This document shows, piece by piece, positions 25,527 through 33,662 of a stretch of 64,000 bases of DNA. How positions within the stretch are numbered: position 1 is the first letter of the stretch; the number at the start of each line of letters is the position of its first letter. Origin of the DNA: Ahrensia sp. (lineage in GTDB: Bacteria > Pseudomonadota > Alphaproteobacteria > Rhizobiales > Rhizobiaceae); the NCBI GenBank assembly GCA_002706335.1, contig PAKZ01000037.1, positions 62,001-126,000 of the forward strand, read 5' to 3'. A model generated the notes under the pieces. It made no database searches. It had not been told where the DNA came from and was given only the letters and a program-made list of their open reading frames with translations. Position numbers and translations under genes: made by a program.

Positions 25527-26008
25527 GAGGCAGTTTGCTTTTCTGGGATTTAGGCCTCTGGTTTCGGGCCTTGGCTTTCACTTGTGGATTGAAGGCTGAT
25601 GTCCACTTTGCTCCGCGTATTTGGTCGTTGAGATGATTATCTGCTCCACCTGAAAGCGGACACTTCTTTGCGGCGTCTTGTGGCTATCGCGTCAAGCACG
25701 GTCCTTATGAGTTAAATATACTTGCGCTCGAATTTTCTGGCTTGCGCGATATTGGTGGGTGGACAGCAGATAAAGTCATCACAATATTAGATCTGTTGCT
25801 TGAATGCGCTGCTTTGAACCGGTATAAAACTTTCCCCGAATATTATTTCTCATGTATTTTTCAATTTAATTTAATTTTGAAATCTGCGTGTTGAATTTAT
25901 AATGCGTTACCGAGTTGCTGCACGACGTTGTTTGAGCACTGATAATGTGCAAGTAAACTCCGGCTTTCGAAGGCTTAGCCGTTCAAACGCAAAGTGTGGG
26001 AGGTCGTG
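25527..26008. other. AT-rich intergenic spacer with possible gene remnant and promoter
   Basis: No complete gene. A plus-strand frame is open from 25637 to 25894 (85 sense codons) but has no ATG or GTG start and no ribosome site; it may be a decayed gene end. Base composition falls sharply around 25690-25905 compared with the flanks, marking the island's left edge. A possible sigma-70-type promoter is TTTTGA (25875-25880), 17 nt, TATAAT (25898-25903), about 100 nt before the first gene of the deoxyribosyltransferase-like operon. Confidence 0.5.
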
Positions 26009-26506
26009 GTGCTCAAACTCGCGGTGATTGGCAGTTTCCGTCGTCCGAACTATCCTAAAGTCAGGTCAATAATTGAGGCATTTCGGCTTGCGGGCCTTCA
26101 TGTTACCTCGCCGGCCGGAACCGAAATTATCAGTGGCGAAGAATTCGTCCGGTTCGAGAGCGACCCGCCGAACCAATCTGATGCTCAGATACAGACGGAA
26201 ACTCTCGAACGTATATTCTCGGCAGATGCGGTGTACGTGATTACCGGCCCGAACGGATATGTCGGCAAAACGACATGCTACGAAATCGGTCGCGTGATCC
26301 AGCGACGGCAGCCAGTGTTTTTCGATGATTTCCCCGACGATCTTCCTGTACACATCCCGCCCACGTATGTGGTGTCGCCGGCAGAATTCGTGCTACGCTA
26401 CCTGGAAATGAACGAGCGCCCAACTTGGCTATTTGAGTCAGGTCAAGGAGATGTTTTCGATGGCGAACGCCGCCTCATTGGTTACGCCGTGGACCGGAAA
26501 GAATGA
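26009..26506 (+). CDS. Nucleoside 2-deoxyribosyltransferase-like protein (first of operon)
   Basis: Seen: 165 aa. A Rossmann-like beginning (LAVIGSFRRPNYPKVRSIIE) is followed, about 60 residues on, by ADAVYVITGPNGYVGKTTCYEIG and QPVFFDDFP. The CYEIG glutamate, preceded by a glycine-rich loop, is where the catalytic Glu sits in nucleoside 2-deoxyribosyltransferases (NDT). Known: NDT-fold proteins include nucleoside transferases and N-glycosidase effectors in bacterial conflict systems. The start is GTG 26009, 5 nt after GGGAGG; GTGs at 26006 and 25994 are alternatives. The gene overlaps the next by 47 nt. Its composition is lower in GC than the flanks. Substrate unknown. Confidence 0.7.
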   Translation: MLKLAVIGSFRRPNYPKVRSIIEAFRLAGLHVTSPAGTEIISGEEFVRFESDPPNQSDAQIQTETLERIFSADAVYVITGPNGYVGKTTCYEIGRVIQRRQPVFFDDFPDDLPVHIPPTYVVSPAEFVLRYLEMNERPTWLFESGQGDVFDGERRLIGYAVDRKE

Positions 26507-26975
26507 TATTTCTTTCAAGCAGCGCTTCGTCGTTTGCGGGAGTATGGCATTTGCCCGCAGGATGGATGAGATTTGTTCCAGACTCGCCGAGCAGGATGTC
26601 CTCGCCATCGCACCGGACGACGTCGACACAGGAGCAGAATTTAGCGACCAGAAATACTATCAGCGGTTCAAGAAAGAGGTCTCTAGGAGACACATCAAGA
26701 AGGTGCGCGATCCCAGAACAATCGGTATCGTCGTCGCAAACTACGAAAAGTATGGCACGCCTAGCTATATCGGCGCAAATACGTTTGCCGAGATCGCGAT
26801 CGCGTTTGCCGATAACAAGGCTATTTTTCTGCTTGATGGCATTCCCGCAAATTACTCCGACGAGCTGTCAGCATGGGGCGTACACGATCTTAGGGGCAGT
26901 CTTGATCCGCTGGTTTTCAGGTATCGCGATCGATGTCGAAAAGACCTAAGCCAGCTCAGGCTTCCCTGTTTCTGA
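26460..26975 (+). CDS. Nucleoside 2-deoxyribosyltransferase-like protein (second of operon)
   Basis: Seen: 171 aa from ATG 26460 (GGAG 11 nt upstream). The pattern is FVVCGSMAFARRMDEI at the N-terminus, then VVANYEKYGTPSYIGANTF, AEIAIAFADNKAIFLLDG. The NxFxEIAxA glutamate (Glu111) and the following KAIFLL strand are those of NDT-like proteins of the 'GSM..YIGxNTFxEI' type. It is not a recent duplicate of the upstream gene: the two are very different in sequence. It overlaps both neighbours (47 nt and 43 nt), so the three proteins are made in a coupled manner and probably act together. Confidence 0.72.
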   Translation: MANAASLVTPWTGKNDISFKQRFVVCGSMAFARRMDEICSRLAEQDVLAIAPDDVDTGAEFSDQKYYQRFKKEVSRRHIKKVRDPRTIGIVVANYEKYGTPSYIGANTFAEIAIAFADNKAIFLLDGIPANYSDELSAWGVHDLRGSLDPLVFRYRDRCRKDLSQLRLPCF

Positions 26976-28744
26976 AGCCGGGATCAATCCATCCTCGCGT
27001 ATTCTTTCTCCACTTTTTCGATATTCACTTTTTAGAAGAACGGGGCGAATATGCGCGGAGTCGTAGCGCGCTGCAGGAAATGGAATTGGCGGTCAGGTTT
27101 GCCGTCATTCTCGGATTGCGCATACTTGTTCCAGCGGCATCCTATCAGGAGTCGGACGTCGCGGGACAATTGCTAGGGCCGTTCCTGCGCAGCGACACTG
27201 CTTCACTTTTCAAGCTACTTGGAGGCGGAAGCTCGCTAGAGGAGTTTCGCCGGGATAAGCTGGAGCAGTACCGCCGCGGCTCGGCTCAGTATGAAGTGTA
27301 CTCAAAACCTTTGAGACAGAATGTGGGTTGGGAGCGACGTAAGCGCAGCGCCACTCATGACATCACGAACGACTGGCTGTTGGAGGCAGATAACGAAAAG
27401 CTGTACGCTCGCTTCCACGCCCTGAAAGCAGATGGAACCTCCGACCTGGATTTCGAGCGCGCATGGCGCGATGTTCCCGGGCGTCTTGGAAAGGATGCCT
27501 TCATCGTGCCTCACGTGACGGATCTTCTGCCTATCAAAGCTGGCAACATGGCTGCCGAGAACGCGCTTCACAACCTCGTAAACCGCTACTATTTCGGCAG
27601 CTATGCCAAGGATTATCAAGATTCTGCCGTCTTCCAGAACATGGCAATATCAACGGGGGACGTCATTCCGTCTGCCAATCCCAAAGACGACATTGATTTT
27701 GCGGCGTTGTTGAAACAATGCCGATCACGTGGCCTTCTCGCGGAGATAAAAGATTGCCCCATCGACAAACTGGAAACGATGGCTTTTCAATCATCATTCG
27801 AGGAAGCATTCCGTTTTTCACAGACAGACGGATATGCGTCTATGAATGAAGTTCAAAAGCCCCAACGATACAAGGTCGACCTAGCTATCTTGACCGCGCT
27901 TCCGAAGGAGCGCGAGGCCGTAGAAATGGTCTTCGGTGAGGGCCGCGACAAACAGTTTGAAAATGACCCCCATGTTTACAAGCTAATAGACTACGAGATC
28001 GACGGAATGGTCAAACAAATAGCCGTGGCCGTTCTATCCGAAATGGGAAACACGCTGTCGGGGGTGACATCTACCGATTTTATGCGGTCGATCGACGCAG
28101 CCCATACTGTCATGGTTGGAATCGCAGGCGGTTGCCCGCTTCCGAACAATGCCCAAGAAGACGTCAGGCTAGGCGACGTCGTCATAGGGCAGAGCATTAT
28201 GGAAATCGACTTTTTGAAGCGGAAGCCAGACGGTAGCATCGAATATAGAGACTCGCCACAGAAGGTTTCGTACTCGCTGACACAAATGGTCCGTAATTTG
28301 CAGTCCCACTTGAAAGGGTTCGACACCGGATGGGTGCCTTACCGAGATCAGGCCTTCGAAGCTTACGGCCTCTCGGTCGATACGTTGCCCCCTGACGAAC
28401 TCAAAGGAGCGGACGGAGAACCAGTCGTACGCAAATCTGACCCGCGTCGATTGCTGTCGCCTGCGATAGTCCACTTTGGACGAATCGGGGCCGGTGATAC
28501 TCTCCTAAAAGACCCTACGGTCAGGGACGAACTGCGTGCCAAGTACAGCATTCTAGCAGTCGAAATGGAAAGTGCAGGCTTACGCGATGCGGGCTGGTCG
28601 CGATCTCAAGAGATCGGCGTTGTGCGCGCGATCGTCGATTATTGTGATGGCAATAAAGACGACCGCTGGCATATCATAGGGGCTCTGAACGCCGCTGCAG
28701 TGACAAGGCTGCTATTCGAAAAGATTATTGCGGCTGGGAAATAG
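26933..28744 (+). CDS. Two-domain protein: unrecognised N-terminal half, nucleoside phosphorylase-superfamily C-terminal half
   Basis: Seen: 603 aa. Residues about 310-600 form a PNP/UDP-phosphorylase (MTA/SAH-nucleosidase-like) domain: VDLAILTALPKEREAVEMVF, MVGIAGGCP, LGDVVIGQ, IHFGRI-like IVHFGRIGAGD, the nucleoside-binding VEMESAG near 545, then VRAIVDYCDGNKDDRWH. Residues about 20-300 match no family I know; the block LQEMELAVRFAVILGLRILV, VPAASYQESD looks conserved-type. Known: PNP-superfamily domains occur as effectors in predicted bacterial immunity proteins. No transmembrane segment. Inferred: nucleotide-depleting effector or base-releasing enzyme acting with the two NDT-like proteins encoded just upstream. 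Rare codons (ATA, CTA, AGA) suggest transfer. Confidence 0.72.
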   Translation: MSKRPKPAQASLFLKPGSIHPRVFFLHFFDIHFLEERGEYARSRSALQEMELAVRFAVILGLRILVPAASYQESDVAGQLLGPFLRSDTASLFKLLGGGSSLEEFRRDKLEQYRRGSAQYEVYSKPLRQNVGWERRKRSATHDITNDWLLEADNEKLYARFHALKADGTSDLDFERAWRDVPGRLGKDAFIVPHVTDLLPIKAGNMAAENALHNLVNRYYFGSYAKDYQDSAVFQNMAISTGDVIPSANPKDDIDFAALLKQCRSRGLLAEIKDCPIDKLETMAFQSSFEEAFRFSQTDGYASMNEVQKPQRYKVDLAILTALPKEREAVEMVFGEGRDKQFENDPHVYKLIDYEIDGMVKQIAVAVLSEMGNTLSGVTSTDFMRSIDAAHTVMVGIAGGCPLPNNAQEDVRLGDVVIGQSIMEIDFLKRKPDGSIEYRDSPQKVSYSLTQMVRNLQSHLKGFDTGWVPYRDQAFEAYGLSVDTLPPDELKGADGEPVVRKSDPRRLLSPAIVHFGRIGAGDTLLKDPTVRDELRAKYSILAVEMESAGLRDAGWSRSQEIGVVRAIVDYCDGNKDDRWHIIGALNAAAVTRLLFEKIIAAGK

Positions 28745-28982: not shown

Positions 28983-29738
28983 ATGAAGCTGACTGCATAT
29001 GTGGAAGATGGATACGAACTGGATATCCGTCCGGCCAGGCCGAACCGCGACTGGCTGGACGCCTATGCCGACGGACACGCCTATGGCTGCCTGCCCATGC
29101 TCATTGCCAACCAGATGGGTTGGGAAATACGCACGCCGACGGGTTTCACCGTGGTCTGGAATGGCGGCGGCAACCGCAGAAGTCTCGCCGTGATCGCGGA
29201 CGATCCGGAAAGCGCGTACATTGTGAGCCACTTCGGCGCCGGCATTTTCACTTTCTCGTTTCCGGCCATATTTCGCACCGAACCCGGCTACGATCTGATG
29301 ATCCAGGGCCCTCCCAATAGCCCGGTTCGCGGCGCGACACCGTTCAGCGGCCTGGTGGAGACGGATTGGGTGCTGACCTCGGCTGCCATCCACTGGCAGG
29401 TCACCGAACCCAACAGGGCGGTGCGGTTTCGCAAGGGCGACGCGGTGGCCCAGATTTTTCCTGTGCGACGCGGGGATGCGGAAAGTTTTGAACCGGAGAT
29501 GCGCCGCATCTCCGACGCGCCGGAGATCGCGGAGTATATGGAGGAGTGGTACACGCGCCGGAGGGCCTTCAACGACGCTCTTAAAGACCCGGAGTCAGCC
29601 GAAAGGCGGAAGAGATGGCCCGGGCACTATCGGCGCGGAACCGACATTTTCGATAACAAAGCCTCACCGGAGACGCACCGGACGCGTCTTCGAATGCGGG
29701 ACTTCGAAGACCGGCGCGATCCAAAACCGGAAAAATGA
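28983..29738 (+). CDS. DUF6065 family protein
   Basis: Seen: 251 aa. Conserved blocks of the DUF6065 type: NRDWLDAYADGHAYGCLPML, IANQMGWEI, VSHFGAGIFTFSFPAIFRT, GYDLMIQGPPNSP, FSGLVETDW and a late PVRRGDAESFEPE. It has no signal peptide or membrane segment; the C-terminus is charged. Function is unknown. It ends 118 nt before the first RiPP precursor gene on the same strand and is separated from the upstream NDT/PNP operon by 238 nt without a gene, so it may belong to the RiPP locus. GC content is back to the genomic level. Confidence 0.75.
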   Translation: MKLTAYVEDGYELDIRPARPNRDWLDAYADGHAYGCLPMLIANQMGWEIRTPTGFTVVWNGGGNRRSLAVIADDPESAYIVSHFGAGIFTFSFPAIFRTEPGYDLMIQGPPNSPVRGATPFSGLVETDWVLTSAAIHWQVTEPNRAVRFRKGDAVAQIFPVRRGDAESFEPEMRRISDAPEIAEYMEEWYTRRRAFNDALKDPESAERRKRWPGHYRRGTDIFDNKASPETHRTRLRMRDFEDRRDPKPEK

Positions 29739-29855
29739 CCTAACGTCAGGAAATCTCCGGCGACAAGATTGACGAACCATGGCTGGTCAACCTATCAATT
29801 GTTGAGCGGTGAGTGGCCGCCATTGAAGAATTTCGACGGCGTTGAGGAGCGGCTT

Positions 29856-29945
29856 ATGAAGAAATACATCAAACCTGCGGTGAGCAAGAGAGCCACACTT
29901 GCGCGCGTTACCAGCGCGACGTCTGTGACCAGCTATACCCCCTGA
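29856..29945 (+). CDS. RiPP precursor peptide 1 (lasso-type leader)
   Basis: Seen: 29 aa, with Shine-Dalgarno GAGGAG (29844-29849) 6 nt before ATG. The leader shows YxxPxVxxxAxxxxxT from Tyr4 to Thr19, the RRE-recognition pattern of lasso-peptide leaders (YxxPxLxxxGxxxxxT), with Thr19 at the penultimate leader position. The predicted core starts at Ala21: ATSVTSYTP, rich in Ser, Thr and Tyr. No Asp/Glu is available for a macrolactam. It is a paralogue of the peptide gene at 30178. Inferred: substrate of the opposite-strand B1/B2/kinase/nucleotidyltransferase operon. The gene is too short for most gene finders. Confidence 0.75.
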   Translation: MKKYIKPAVSKRATLARVTSATSVTSYTP

Positions 29946-30177
29946 TTGATAGTATTGAGCGCCTGCTGACAGCTGGCTGCAAAACCAATACCCGACCCAA
30001 GGCCAGGAGGCTTTGGGGCAAGTTCGGTTCGGAACCGACAGTTTCGAAATTGGAAAGCTGACTTCCAGTTGGAAATACTCCATCAGTGCCGTTGACGGCC
30101 CATGAATAGCCAACTATTCAAGTGACAGGCGGTGGTTGACCGTCCATGCATTTTTTCGACGGTGCCAGGGAGTGAAA

Positions 30178-30279
30178 ATGAAGAAGTACATCAAGCCTGT
30201 GCTGATCAAGAGAGCGACACTTGCGCGAGTAACCAGCGCGAGTTCCGGCGCCCCCGCTTGGGTAAAGGATCCGCCATAA
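30178..30279 (+). CDS. RiPP precursor peptide 2 (lasso-type leader)
   Basis: Seen: 33 aa with AGGGAG (30167-30172) 5 nt before ATG. The first 21 residues match precursor 1 at 18 positions (changes only at 8-10), keeping YxxPxLxxxAxxxxxT; the rest is different, with predicted core ASSGAPAWVKDPP from Ala21. The only acidic residue is at core position 11, outside the 7-9 range used for lasso rings. Conserved leader with divergent core is the hallmark of RiPP precursor families. It is followed by a strong terminator at 30335-30374. Confidence 0.78.
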   Translation: MKKYIKPVLIKRATLARVTSASSGAPAWVKDPP

Positions 30280-30334
30280 ATTACCCTTTAGGCTGACATT
30301 CGGCGCCCGCGCCAAATTTTCTGCGAAACGATCG

Positions 30335-30374
30335 GCCACCCCTGAGGCGAGAACGCCTCGGGTTGGCTTTTTTT
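30335..30374 (+). terminator. Strong Rho-independent terminator after the precursor genes
   Basis: Nested stem GCCA/TGGC around CCTGAGGCG/CGCCTCGGG (one G-T pair) with loop AGAA, followed directly by seven T (30368-30374). It ends the plus-strand precursor transcript before the convergent modification operon. Confidence 0.85.
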
Positions 30375-30455
30375 GGGGTTGCGCGAGAGATCGGCCGATG
30401 CCTGCTGCGTGATCGGCATGGAACCGGACGCGCATGGCGGCTCAGGCAGTCGAAT

Positions 30456-31529
30456 TCAGTTCGCCACCGAGCGAGGCTCTTCACTTCGAACCAGATCCGG
30501 CTGGCGTGTCAGCATCCAGCGGTAGACCTGTCGGCGCCAGGAATGACGCCAGCGCGATCGCGATTGTGCGTTCGTAACGGACGCCGGCCCGATAAGGCGT
30601 CGGGTTAGCATGGTGCCGCGCCGTGGCGCGCATTGCCTTGCAAGGGCCGCGCTCGCCTCGCATCCGAACAGGGCGGCGGCGAGATCGAGCCCCGTGAGAA
30701 GAGCTGTCTCGGCGCCGGCCCGCGCGGCGCGGTCTTTCAGTTCCTGCACGTCGACGCCGGCGCGTGCAATCATCAGCATGTCGACGACATATTGCAGCCG
30801 GTCGAACTGGTGCGACGTGGCGCCGTGCAGGGCGGCCAGGACGAGGCGTCCCGCCATCGTGACGCCTCCGGAACCAGGCCCCGCGTAATCCTCATGGGTC
30901 AGGGACATCGACCGGCGCAACTTCGGCGCATGAACGATGTCCGTGTGCAGTTCGACAAGGGAAAGCCCGCCATCCCGGTCTTTCCTGAGGAACTGACGCT
31001 CGGTGTATGCCTCGTGCTTCTGGTCGGGAGCGACAGGGGCAAACCCCAGATCGGCGACGATGGCCCCGACGGCTTCTGTCGCTGCCGGATCCACGAGGAT
31101 ATCGATATCCGAGAAGGCCCGCATATGCAGGCCGCCATAGACGGTCTCGGCGAAATCGGGGCCCTTGACGACAATAGCGGGCAGGCTCTCCCCCAGGAGG
31201 CGGGTGTTGATACGACGTGCGACATCGTTCAGAATCATGTTGCGCCTCAGATGCGCCAGAGAGGACGACTCCAGCGCGTCGGCGAGCGATTTCCCGGCGG
31301 CAGACCTCGCGGTCTCATCGCTGCCGGTCACCAGGGGGGACTTCGCCTTCACCGCCGCGGCTACGTTTCGGCCGAGCGCCATGATGACGCCGTGTTGGCC
31401 GGCCTGCGCCGCGATGTCTGCAATGTGACTTTCGGCAAGCGGCAAAGGCAGCTTCGGTGCGCCGGCCTTCGCGGCATCGACCAGAGGATCGCTGTAATGC
31501 ACAAGCCATCTGGATTGCTGCGAGGTCAT
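30456..31529 (-). CDS. NTP_transf_5-type nucleotidyltransferase, last gene of the RiPP operon
   Basis: Seen: 357 aa. The core reads VVKGPDFAETVYGGLHMRAF, SDIDILVDPAA, the pattern of the 'uncharacterised nucleotidyltransferase' family (NTP_transf_5), in which KG, the Arg and the DxD-type SDIDILV form the active site; an acidic/His strand LVELHTDI follows. Known: such genes occur beside HPr-kinase-like genes in lasso-peptide clusters. Its ATG overlaps the kinase stop by 4 nt (ATGA). Inferred: adds a nucleotide to the peptide or its phosphate. The C-terminus is basic (RRSWRRQVYRWM-like), possibly for peptide or membrane contact. Confidence 0.78.
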   Translation of the reverse strand: MTSQQSRWLVHYSDPLVDAAKAGAPKLPLPLAESHIADIAAQAGQHGVIMALGRNVAAAVKAKSPLVTGSDETARSAAGKSLADALESSSLAHLRRNMILNDVARRINTRLLGESLPAIVVKGPDFAETVYGGLHMRAFSDIDILVDPAATEAVGAIVADLGFAPVAPDQKHEAYTERQFLRKDRDGGLSLVELHTDIVHAPKLRRSMSLTHEDYAGPGSGGVTMAGRLVLAALHGATSHQFDRLQYVVDMLMIARAGVDVQELKDRAARAGAETALLTGLDLAAALFGCEASAALARQCAPRRGTMLTRRLIGPASVTNAQSRSRWRHSWRRQVYRWMLTRQPDLVRSEEPRSVAN

Positions 31530-32593
31530 TGGCCTTCATCCGTTCCCGAAAGCCGGGCAAGCGCCTGCTCCAGCATCGGCGCCAATGTCGTCAGATCCGA
31601 TCCCACCCTTAACTGAAGGACGGGATTGCTGCGCACCAGGTCGGCATAAACGGAAAATTGCGACTGGCTCCACGGCTTGACCCCGGTCGGGCTGTTGGAA
31701 ACGTTGTCCTGAGCAATCTGCAGGAGCGCCTCTGCCCGTGAAACCGGATTGATCTGGTGAGAATCGTCCGTGCGCTCGCCTAGCATTACGACGGCGTGGA
31801 CGGGCCTGGGCGGGTGCTTCCTGACCTGAAATGCATGCCGCAGATCATCGATATGGACGCCCTGTTCGTCTTCGGCGTTCCAATTGTCAGGCAGATCCCC
31901 AATCCACGGCAGCAATTCGGCCGTGCGGCGATGAACCTTGATCCGGTTCGGAATGCCCCAAACCTTCCAGTGTCCATCGTCCTTCAAGACCGCGCTGGTG
32001 TCGTCCGCCATGAAAATGAAGCCGCCATGGGCGAGCGCCAGCGACGTCGTAGTCTTGCCGAAGCCCGACGGGGCGCACAGAAGGATCGAACCCGGTGTAT
32101 TCGGGACGCCGAGGCAGGCTGCATGAAGGACGCGCTGCCCCTGGGTGCTCAGAGTTGCTTCAACGATAGCCGAGAGCGGTGTGTACATGAACGCATCGAA
32201 GCCGCCCGGCCTGGCAATGATAGACGCCTGCTTTTCCGCATAGTTTATCGTCGCATGGCCATAGCCGGGCAATTCCACGGTCCATGTGTCTTCGGTTTCG
32301 TAGAGATTGGCCGCGGTTCCCTCGATAAGTCGGCCCGACCAGGTATGCGGAAAGGCTTCGGGAACGCGGGGGCGCTCATCTTCTTCGATGCTGAGAGAAA
32401 ACCCGCGTGCGTCGGACGCGCCGGACAGGAACCAATGGCATCCGTCCGCAAGCATCTGCGTCCATCGCGCGTTGCTGGCGGAAACCCGCAGCACCGCCCC
32501 TTCGAAGTCGAGCACCAGAGCGTTTGATTCAGCCAAACCGGGTGGCCCCCGATGAACCGAGGACGGTTGCCGGAATGCTCTGGCTGCCGTCAT
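31526..32593 (-). CDS. HPr-kinase-like peptide kinase (paeninodin-kinase type)
   Basis: Seen: up to 355 aa; P-loop APSGFGKTTTSLAL (174-187) and FMADDTSAV (195-203), corresponding to Walker A and the catalytic ADD of the HprK C-terminal domain; an N-terminal region of about 150 residues binds an unknown partner. Known: HprK homologues in lasso clusters phosphorylate the peptide's C-terminal region (PadeK of paeninodin). Start uncertain: ATG 32593 overlaps the B2 gene by 65 nt, while a TTG at the B2 stop would give almost no overlap and loses nothing conserved. It overlaps the nucleotidyltransferase by 4 nt. Confidence 0.8.
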   Translation of the reverse strand: MTAARAFRQPSSVHRGPPGLAESNALVLDFEGAVLRVSASNARWTQMLADGCHWFLSGASDARGFSLSIEEDERPRVPEAFPHTWSGRLIEGTAANLYETEDTWTVELPGYGHATINYAEKQASIIARPGGFDAFMYTPLSAIVEATLSTQGQRVLHAACLGVPNTPGSILLCAPSGFGKTTTSLALAHGGFIFMADDTSAVLKDDGHWKVWGIPNRIKVHRRTAELLPWIGDLPDNWNAEDEQGVHIDDLRHAFQVRKHPPRPVHAVVMLGERTDDSHQINPVSRAEALLQIAQDNVSNSPTGVKPWSQSQFSVYADLVRSNPVLQLRVGSDLTTLAPMLEQALARLSGTDEGQ

Positions 32594-32996
32594 AGGCGAA
32601 CAGTTCCAGCATCGTCGGCGATGGTGGATTCATCGCCACTTCGTCGTTCACCGAAATCCAGCAATGCGCTTTGGGTCTGTCGGTCCGCAGCGTTTCCTTT
32701 TCAACGGCGAAGTGAAGCAGAGGCCGATGGCCCGCCAAGGACAGGTACCGGAACGCGAGCAGGCCTTCGCGCAGGCAGCGTCGACCGCGCATCCGCCATG
32801 GGCGGCGCGTGACACGTTTGACCGAAGCCACGATCTCGTCACTGCTTAACGCGGTATAGGCGGCTGTTTGGCCTGCCGGCGTCGCCATCCGCAGCAACGC
32901 CCCGATTGGGGCGCTCTTGGCAAACACCGGCATCAATCGCGCCGATATCCAAAGGCTTGCTGCAAACGGGACATAGGACGGAGGGAAGGGGCTCAT
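32529..32996 (-). CDS. Lasso-peptide B2-type leader protease (transglutaminase-like)
   Basis: Seen: 155 aa. The cysteine-protease triad of lasso B2 proteins is visible: Cys74 in RRCLREGLLAFRYL, His111 in KAHCWISVNDEV and Asp118 after it; the helical N-terminal part is of usual length. Known: B2 cuts the leader after the RRE protein presents it. Its ATG shares a base with the B1 stop (TGATG), the common B1-B2 arrangement. Inferred cut site is after Ser20 of both precursors, two residues past the conserved Thr18-19 region. Confidence 0.87.
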   Translation of the reverse strand: MSPFPPSYVPFAASLWISARLMPVFAKSAPIGALLRMATPAGQTAAYTALSSDEIVASVKRVTRRPWRMRGRRCLREGLLAFRYLSLAGHRPLLHFAVEKETLRTDRPKAHCWISVNDEVAMNPPSPTMLELFAYDGSQSIPATVLGSSGATRFG

Positions 32997-33289
32997 CAGG
33001 ATTTCGTTACAAGCGATTCCGCTTCGAGCTCTACGACCAGCTCCTCGAGATCAGACAGAAGCGTCGCCTCATCGACATCGAAATCCGCGAGGATCGGTCC
33101 GATACAATCTCGAACATTCCTGTGCCCGTCGAGATTCGCCAGGAACGCGCATGCCGTATCGTTGATGGTATAGATTTCACCGCTTTCAAGCTTCAGCAGA
33201 ACGCCTCCCTCATCCTCTCCAAGTGCCTGGAGCGAGGTTTGTTCGCTCAGGCTGTATACCGAATTCGCAAAATCTTCGCCCACGCTCAT
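32996..33289 (-). CDS. PqqD-like RiPP recognition element (lasso B1 type)
   Basis: Seen: 97 aa from ATG 33289 (GGAG 4 nt upstream; GTG 33310 is an alternative). PqqD fold signature: a short beta-hairpin GGVLLKLESGEIYTINDTA, then helices ACAFLANLDGHRNVRDCI and DEATLLSDLEELVVELEAE. Known: such RREs bind the YxxP leader of lasso precursors and deliver it to B2. First gene of the four-gene coupled operon; the 373 nt upstream should hold its promoter. Confidence 0.87.
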   Translation of the reverse strand: MSVGEDFANSVYSLSEQTSLQALGEDEGGVLLKLESGEIYTINDTACAFLANLDGHRNVRDCIGPILADFDVDEATLLSDLEELVVELEAESLVTKS

Positions 33290-33662
33290 GCTGCTCCGCA
33301 CTTCAATCACCGCCCAAAATTATCCAAGTCAACTCTTGCCGTGCTTGACCCGGAAGAGTCTCTTCTTGCCATAACACGGCAATTTAGCCGAGCGCCACTC
33401 GATCGCGTTCGGGTTCGATCCTTCAAATCGGGCTGCCTCGCCCGATTGTTGAAACGCTGCGCCTTTGAAACCGATATCGCTGCTTGGCATGGCTGGATAG
33501 GCCGGGCAAGCGTGGCCCGTCCAAACCGCTTTCGACGCTGTTTGCCCGCTGCCGCTCCGCCACGGCCCTTGTCCGCCGGGGAAAACCAGCTTTCATGTAT
33601 ACACGCCTTCAATCCCGCCGCGAAAGCGGCTAAGCAGGATCGACCAGCGGGGGAGGGCTATC
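33290..33662. other. Intergenic region between RiPP operon and aldo/keto reductase
   Basis: No gene is supported. The region must contain the promoter of the minus-strand B1-B2-kinase-nucleotidyltransferase operon and that of the reductase. On the minus strand TTGACT (33332-33327) could be a -35 element, but I see no convincing -10. It marks the right limit of the accessory island; no repeat matching the left edge was found by eye. Confidence 0.5.

Follow-up and report, generated by a model that had tools for sequence, protein, structure and literature searches.

A probable cyclase-free sister of phosphorylated lasso-peptide pathways in Ahrensia sp. and related bacteria

The locus and its genes

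We analysed a gene cluster in a 64,000-nucleotide stretch of Ahrensia sp. DNA (assembly GCA_002706335.1, contig PAKZ01000037.1, positions 62,001 to 126,000). This whole stretch is called the window, and unprefixed positions refer to it. The cluster combines the leader-recognition (B1), leader-cleavage (B2), kinase and nucleotidyltransferase genes of phosphorylated lasso-peptide pathways with two short precursor genes, and it has no lasso cyclase gene. We consider it, with a probability of about 0.62, to be a cyclase-free sister of those pathways that yields a linear phosphopeptide from short precursors. Its features are as follows.

28983-29738, plus strand: DUF6065 protein, candidate core-tailoring enzyme; full-length, PF19541 E = 2.3e-78
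29856-29945, plus strand: precursor 1; leader ...YIKPAVSKRATLARVTS, core about ATSVTSYTP; leader profile 30.2 bits (itself a row in the profile)
30178-30279, plus strand: precursor 2; leader ...YIKPVLIKRATLARVTS, core about ASSGAPAWVKDPP; leader profile 32.7 bits (itself a row in the profile)
30341-30362, plus strand: intrinsic-terminator-like hairpin 3' of precursor 2; 9-pair stem with 7 GC pairs, then a T-rich tail
30456-31529, minus strand: NTP_transf_5 nucleotidyltransferase; PF14907 E = 2.2e-28
31526-32593, minus strand: HprK-like peptide kinase; weak Hpr_kinase_C match; H157, K180, D197 and D198 invariant in 15/15 aligned
32529-32996, minus strand: lasso-type B2 cysteine leader peptidase; NF033537 48.2 bits (cut-off 33), PF13471
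32996-33310, minus strand: B1, a discrete PqqD-type recognition element for ribosomally synthesized and post-translationally modified peptides (RiPPs); GTG start, PF05402 E = 1.1e-11

The four minus-strand genes form a single run (33310 to 30456) in which, with the starts used, neighboring open reading frames (ORFs) overlap by 1 (B1/B2), 65 (B2/kinase) and 4 (kinase/nucleotidyltransferase) bases. A preliminary description of this DNA had recognized that arrangement, and profile matches and coordinates bear it out. The description placed every gene it named correctly but left out the full-length DUF6065 gene, which lies upstream of both precursor genes. Facing the minus-strand run are the two small plus-strand genes, MKKYIKPAVSKRATLARVTSATSVTSYTP and MKKYIKPVLIKRATLARVTSASSGAPAWVKDPP, to which lasso-type leaders had been ascribed. 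Each indeed has a leader with the YxxPx[VL] motif and is preceded by a purine-rich, Shine-Dalgarno-like stretch (GAGGAG for precursor 1, AGGGAG for precursor 2). Both leaders end in T-S, with the penultimate Thr of lasso-peptide leaders. Because the region holds 10 terminator-like sites, as against 4.6 in shuffles, only the strongest hairpin was used.

As in lasso-peptide pathways, a discrete RiPP recognition element (RRE, B1) stands with a cysteine protease (B2). All 16 aligned B2s keep the two residues singled out earlier, Cys74 and His111; our alignments covered 16 B2s, 15 kinases and 14 NTP_transf_5 proteins, a subset of the copies in hand. The kinase scores below the cut-off for HprK-related kinase A of the HPr-rel-A system (NCBIfam TIGR04352; 24 bits versus 200), and a profile of its own family matches solved HPr kinases in the PDB (E = 7e-6). 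According to PMC9266682, His, Lys, Asp and Asp are the residue types catalytic in lasso-tailoring kinases; H157, K180, D197 and D198 would be the positions equivalent to that published signature.

The ATP-dependent macrolactam cyclase (C protein) of lasso-peptide biosynthesis had been reported missing from the 64 kb, and this extends to the source genome (99.46% complete, 46 contigs): none of its five Asn_synthase matches exceeds the lasso-cyclase cut-off (NF033535; best 225.9 bits versus 525). The window B2 is the only one in the genome. Neither window core has Asp or Glu at core positions 7-9, again as described before.

Recurrence in relatives and dispersed precursors

The window B2, used as a query, matched 3 of 61 relatives, itself included. 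The B2 of a congener (G005) was a better query, matching 24 of 394 genomes of the family in 11 genera, and we read about 20 kb around each of these 24 matches. B1, B2 and the kinase occur together at 22 of the 24 loci, with the nucleotidyltransferase gene nearby at 21. The trio is missing at L056, which is an ordinary lasso cluster, and at L054, where B2 stands alone and the kinase is on another contig of the genome.

A cyclase co-occurring with these genes across relatives was named in the preliminary description as one sign of a lasso product. Of the 24 genomes with a B2 of this or a related kind, 6 have a match to the lasso cyclase model over its cut-off and 18 have none. Among the 29 B2s over cut-off in the 24 genomes, a cyclase is the immediate neighbor of 6 and not of the other 23; every one of the 6 cyclases adjoins its own B2. 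Besides the lasso genes, five of the six cyclase genomes have a cyclase-free cluster that is separate from them; in the sixth, G583, the only cluster is an ordinary lasso one. In a tree of the 29 B2s, a branch with 100/100 support divides the 23 cyclase-free ones from the 6 local cyclase-linked B2s, relative to which they are monophyletic; the lasso B2s in this tree are those from six of these genomes only. Because both systems occur in one genome with their own B2s, and given this branch, the cyclase-free cluster appears to be a separate and established pathway rather than a decaying one.

The five genomes with both systems belong to one genus, Mesorhizobium, as judged from named loci of the kinase-profile scan given below, and their lasso cyclases lie about 9-29 kb from the cyclase-free B2. 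At these lasso loci (L057-L061) the cyclase has its own B2 and a weakly HprK-like gene. Two of the five, L057 and L058, were inspected for precursors and have a typical lasso precursor such as ...ITQGGGGNTATDVSFPAHTPIGDLTFS; at all three lasso loci inspected (L056-L058), the precursor has Asp at core position 9. The local lasso clusters of this bacterial family (L056-L061) resemble the window in their NF033537-type B2 and adjoining weakly HprK-like gene, but differ in having a cyclase over the NF033535 cut-off and B2s across the 100/100 branch.

A kinase-profile scan of one genome per species gave at least 15 loci. Among the matches listed are Mesorhizobium species, Hoeflea poritis, Kaistia defluvii, a Hyphomicrobiales metagenome-assembled genome (MAG), a Rhizobiaceae-group MAG and two Desulfuromonadales-type MAGs, together with weak matches in Byssovorax and Chloroflexota. 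Of these 15, at least three repeat genomes already covered (L063 = L045, L069 = L037, L074 = L038). No lasso cyclase was found by tblastn in the 15 loci, a search that was less sensitive for the distant loci and in which several are truncated at contig ends.

Precursors accompany the cyclase-free B2s throughout. A profile built from 30 precursors and run over 40 genomes matches at E<=4e-5 in all 23 genomes with a cyclase-free B2. The best value among 16 control genomes without one is E = 0.059, with weak matches at E<=1 in 9 of the 16, and the lasso-only G583 has no match at E<=1. Eleven of the 23 positive genomes contributed rows to the profile. The 12 that contributed no row all match at E<=4e-5, though some of these may be near to the named Mesorhizobium row. 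A single genome holds up to 16 matches (E<=1), and matches are spread over many contigs (for example eight in G676). By eye, over 40 loci, we saw no neighbor gene common to the scattered precursors, and the neighbor families they share look like within-genus synteny, the long precursors described below excepted. At L042, 10 precursors lie near the core genes. At L186:8940-10747, ten precursors form a near-tandem array; their leaders are similar, their short cores differ, and the B2 and kinase of this genome are on two other contigs.

We delimited cores by a rule of our own, in which the leader comprises 17 (or 18) residues counted from the Tyr of the motif, and collected 121 cores. Under this cleavage rule, the next-to-last leader residue is Thr in 86 and Val in 16. 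Four leader-like ORFs, from L043, L076, L046 (its fourth) and L048 (its second), and the Desulfuromonadales-type precursors lie outside this list, and the L074 ORFs repeat those of L038. In 116 of the 121 cases, the ORF ends 5-26 residues past the leader. The cores comprise 119 distinct sequences, and dropping five longer than 30 residues leaves a short set of 114, with a median of 11 residues; 78 are shorter than 13, and 56 have 10 residues or fewer. All 114 contain Ser or Thr, compared with 80.4 on average and at most 96 for same-length control tails (2000 draws), which came from longest-ORF calls of other ORFs, some possibly in wrong frames. This enrichment may be inflated because the precursor profile covers the first core residues. 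A Ser-Gly pair occurs in 46 of the 114, versus a mean of 15.6 and a maximum of 25 in shuffled cores. Such traits would be expected of a conserved kinase target, short of proving one. Asp or Glu at core positions 7-9 was the other sign of a lasso product named beforehand; it does occur in homologous precursors, in 17 of the 121 cores, but is not conserved. Precursors at the Desulfuromonadales-type loci end in VVSGAPAQV, VVSGAPVQG or MVSGVSGDGSVR.

The remaining 5 of the 121 leader-bearing ORFs continue for 84-111 residues, at four loci, and the one tested per locus has a Peptidase_S74 (endosialidase chaperone) domain (L157:9390-9767, L160:9175-9567, L185:8794-9141 and L190:9600-9992; L190 has a second long ORF). 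This is an unusual fusion for a RiPP-type leader.

Comparison with known systems and interpretation

Of the published systems that we found, the linear polyphosphorylated peptides (LPPs) of Bacillota, described in 2026, come nearest to the present one; they are phosphorylated at core Ser3 by an HprK-like kinase without a cyclase (PMC13381572). LPP clusters share with the present system a discrete RRE, a YxxP leader, an HprK-like kinase, a nucleotidyltransferase, the missing cyclase and a linear product, and they too can share a genome with a lasso cluster. The window itself has the LPP set of RRE, HprK-like kinase and nucleotidyltransferase with no cyclase. However, the LPP leader peptidase is archaeal-type and signal peptidase I-like, whereas here it is a lasso B2; the corresponding model, TIGR02228, has no match in the source genome and, across the 24 genomes, is sub-threshold in 3 and over cut-off in 0. 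The LPP core is longer in the studied case, whereas the present cores are mostly of 5-26 residues (116 of 121) and their precursors dispersed. LPP hosts are Bacillota (PMC13381572); ours are Hyphomicrobiales and two Desulfuromonadales-type MAGs. By eye, the window leaders match the LPP leader consensus, YxxPxVLxHQxIxFETxxS, only at Y, P, V/L and T. With paeninodin and pseudomycoidin, the system has in common the B1, B2 and HprK-like kinase genes, the nucleotidyltransferase gene (pseudomycoidin) and the lasso-type leader; it differs in being cyclase-free and in window cores that lack both the C-terminal Ser targeted by PadeK and PsmK and the ring acid at positions 7-9 (PMC9266682).

The present system would work like the LPP and phosphorylated lasso pathways, yet lacks a defining feature of each. 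Besides LPPs, we found no report of a cyclase-free lasso-type system in this group in the literature searched, which excludes most subscription papers and all preprints. New here are a B2 without a cyclase, very short cores, dispersed precursors and the accessory sets (DUF6065; AMP ligase with acyl carrier protein (ACP) and GNAT; B12-radical-SAM). Prochlorosin-type RiPPs likewise combine one enzyme set with many scattered precursors, and their enzymes and chemistry are unrelated.

Given the comparisons of cyclases and of acidic core residues across relatives, the product made with the lasso leader machinery is most likely not a lasso peptide, as had been proposed from the window alone. In the pathway that we favor, B1 would bind the YxxPx[VL] motif of the short precursors and present the leader; the HprK-like kinase would phosphorylate Ser or Thr of the bound core; and the NTP_transf_5 protein would put a nucleotide or, as reported for PsmN, a sugar on the core phosphate. 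B2 would cut behind the T/V-A leader end (here T-S), giving a linear peptide that carries phosphate and in most cases has 5-26 residues, and DUF6065 might modify the SVT-containing cores of its sub-group further. We infer this order of steps, as we do any export and biological role of the product. Phosphate and a nucleotide on the product are suggested by the intact kinase signature, the Ser or Thr in every counted core and the published work on LPPs and pseudomycoidin.

Several observations weigh against this pathway. The window kinase scores only 16.1 bits against Hpr_kinase_C, below the cut-off of 33.3. Ser3 is the sole site in LPP, where an S3T variant is not phosphorylated, and deletion of lppN caused no detectable change in a heterologous host (PMC13381572). 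Here, Thr is present and Ser absent in 11 of the 121 cores, and 5 of these 11 belong to the DUF6065 clusters L051 and L053. Ser holds no single fixed core position, the first Ser being spread over positions 2-6 across the 121 cores. The nucleotidyltransferase gene was not found near the core genes in L036, nor at L054, which holds B2 only. No dedicated exporter was recognized in the window. LPP clusters carry an MsbA-like transporter; by eye, with no profile search made, none was recognized among the window ORFs at 20-44 kb.

Could the locus be a paeninodin-like cluster of the ordinary kind, now drifting after the loss of its cyclase? All four enzyme genes are known from lasso clusters and the cyclase is absent; however, the B2 is spread over 24 genomes from 11 genera (including the true lasso cluster of G583), active-site residues are kept in the aligned members, precursors match in 23 of 23 genomes, and the B2s are monophyletic against the local lasso B2s, with short cores that have no conserved acidic residue. 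We regard decay as highly improbable. The same holds for a lasso peptide closed in trans by a cyclase encoded elsewhere in the genome. The Mesorhizobium-type genomes with a cyclase about 9-29 kb away, and the 17 cores with an acid at 7-9, would suit it, but 18 of the 24 genomes, the source genome included, have no cyclase over cut-off, all six cyclases adjoin their own B2, the L056-L058 loci have their own Asp9 precursor, and nearly half of the short cores (56 of 114) have 10 residues or fewer.

Less improbable, though still unlikely, is an intracellular protein-tagging system in which the leader would recruit the kinase to mark proteins and no peptide is secreted. The five long ORFs at four loci, of which the one tested per locus has a Peptidase_S74 domain, point that way; nevertheless, the other 116 leader-bearing ORFs end shortly after the leader, and each of the genomes in question has a gene for a leader peptidase. 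The strongest of the alternatives, itself doubtful, is a nucleotide-peptide antibiotic built, by analogy, on the logic of microcin C, with the phosphate or nucleotide as warhead and the short peptide as import handle. Many dispersed and very variable cores per genome fit a library or signaling role at least equally well, however, and no immunity gene or exporter was recognized, none having been searched for with profiles.

Beyond the linear phosphopeptide pathway itself, a broader reading falls slightly short of even odds: a new RiPP class, in Hyphomicrobiales and beyond, in which one B1/B2/kinase/nucleotidyltransferase set would act on a genome-wide precursor library to give linear phospho- or nucleotidyl-peptides that are very short, and in which the accessory modules (DUF6065, AMP ligase with ACP and GNAT, or B12-radical-SAM) would be interchangeable. 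The system stands a fair chance of deserving its own class, and DUF6065 would then be a new peptide-modifying enzyme family. The clusters place a lasso leader-recognition and cleavage module, with its own B2 lineage, outside Bacillota and without the defining cyclase, and they separate the roles of B1 and B2 from lasso folding. More than 100 natural leader-core pairs are available for asking what the kinase and NTP_transf_5 protein add. Lasso searches that require a cyclase would probably miss clusters of this kind.

Accessory modules and neighboring genes

DUF6065 is found at 3 of the 24 loci (the window, L051 and L053), and an AMP ligase of one close type at 10, counting only loci with a ligase of 430 bits or more; in the window sub-group, DUF6065 stands in place of the AMP-ligase module. 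Most L051 and L053 cores share a VTxIWVP-like end, and window core 1 contains SVTSYTP. We tie DUF6065 to the peptides because G562 and G676 also have DUF6065 genes outside the core cluster that adjoin precursors with the same leader type (L107, L109), which gives the family a testable role. These precursors (L107:8138-8769, L109:8706-8978) are proline-rich and lie on contigs other than that of the core cluster of the same genome. DUF6065 is spread more widely, with a match in 51 of 394 genomes, and 12 of 14 other DUF6065 regions read have no precursor of the YxxPx[VL] leader type. The family is not mentioned in the literature searched, within the bounds given above, and has no PDB relative by sequence and no viral relative. 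A single-sequence structure model reached a mean pLDDT of 35.5. We dropped the idea of a 2-oxoglutarate oxygenase, as no HxD...H pattern was seen by eye among the invariant columns.

At the AMP-ligase loci, we recognized by eye a small acyl-carrier-like protein (L010, L011, L042, L044, L046) and a GNAT acyltransferase (L037, L044). Four of these seven were run against Pfam: both GNATs score above cut-off, and the ACP does so in L010 and falls just below in L044. The presence of ACP-like and GNAT proteins suggests that the product of this sub-group may be acylated. A 518-residue 'AMP ligase' near five Mesorhizobium-type clusters proved to be propionate-CoA-ligase-like in the one of five tested and was set aside as an unrelated neighbor. 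In the Desulfuromonadales-type MAGs, which have short VSG-containing precursors, a B12-binding radical SAM gene directly follows the nucleotidyltransferase gene (L072:5207-6667, L073:2411-3871).

Upstream of DUF6065 in the window lie three plus-strand genes (25994-28744). One is nucleoside deoxyribosyltransferase-like, weakly and below the Pfam cut-off, one ORF is without assignment, and the third encodes a 603-residue protein with a nucleoside phosphorylase domain at its C-terminus. Together they are possibly a nucleotide-metabolism or defence set.

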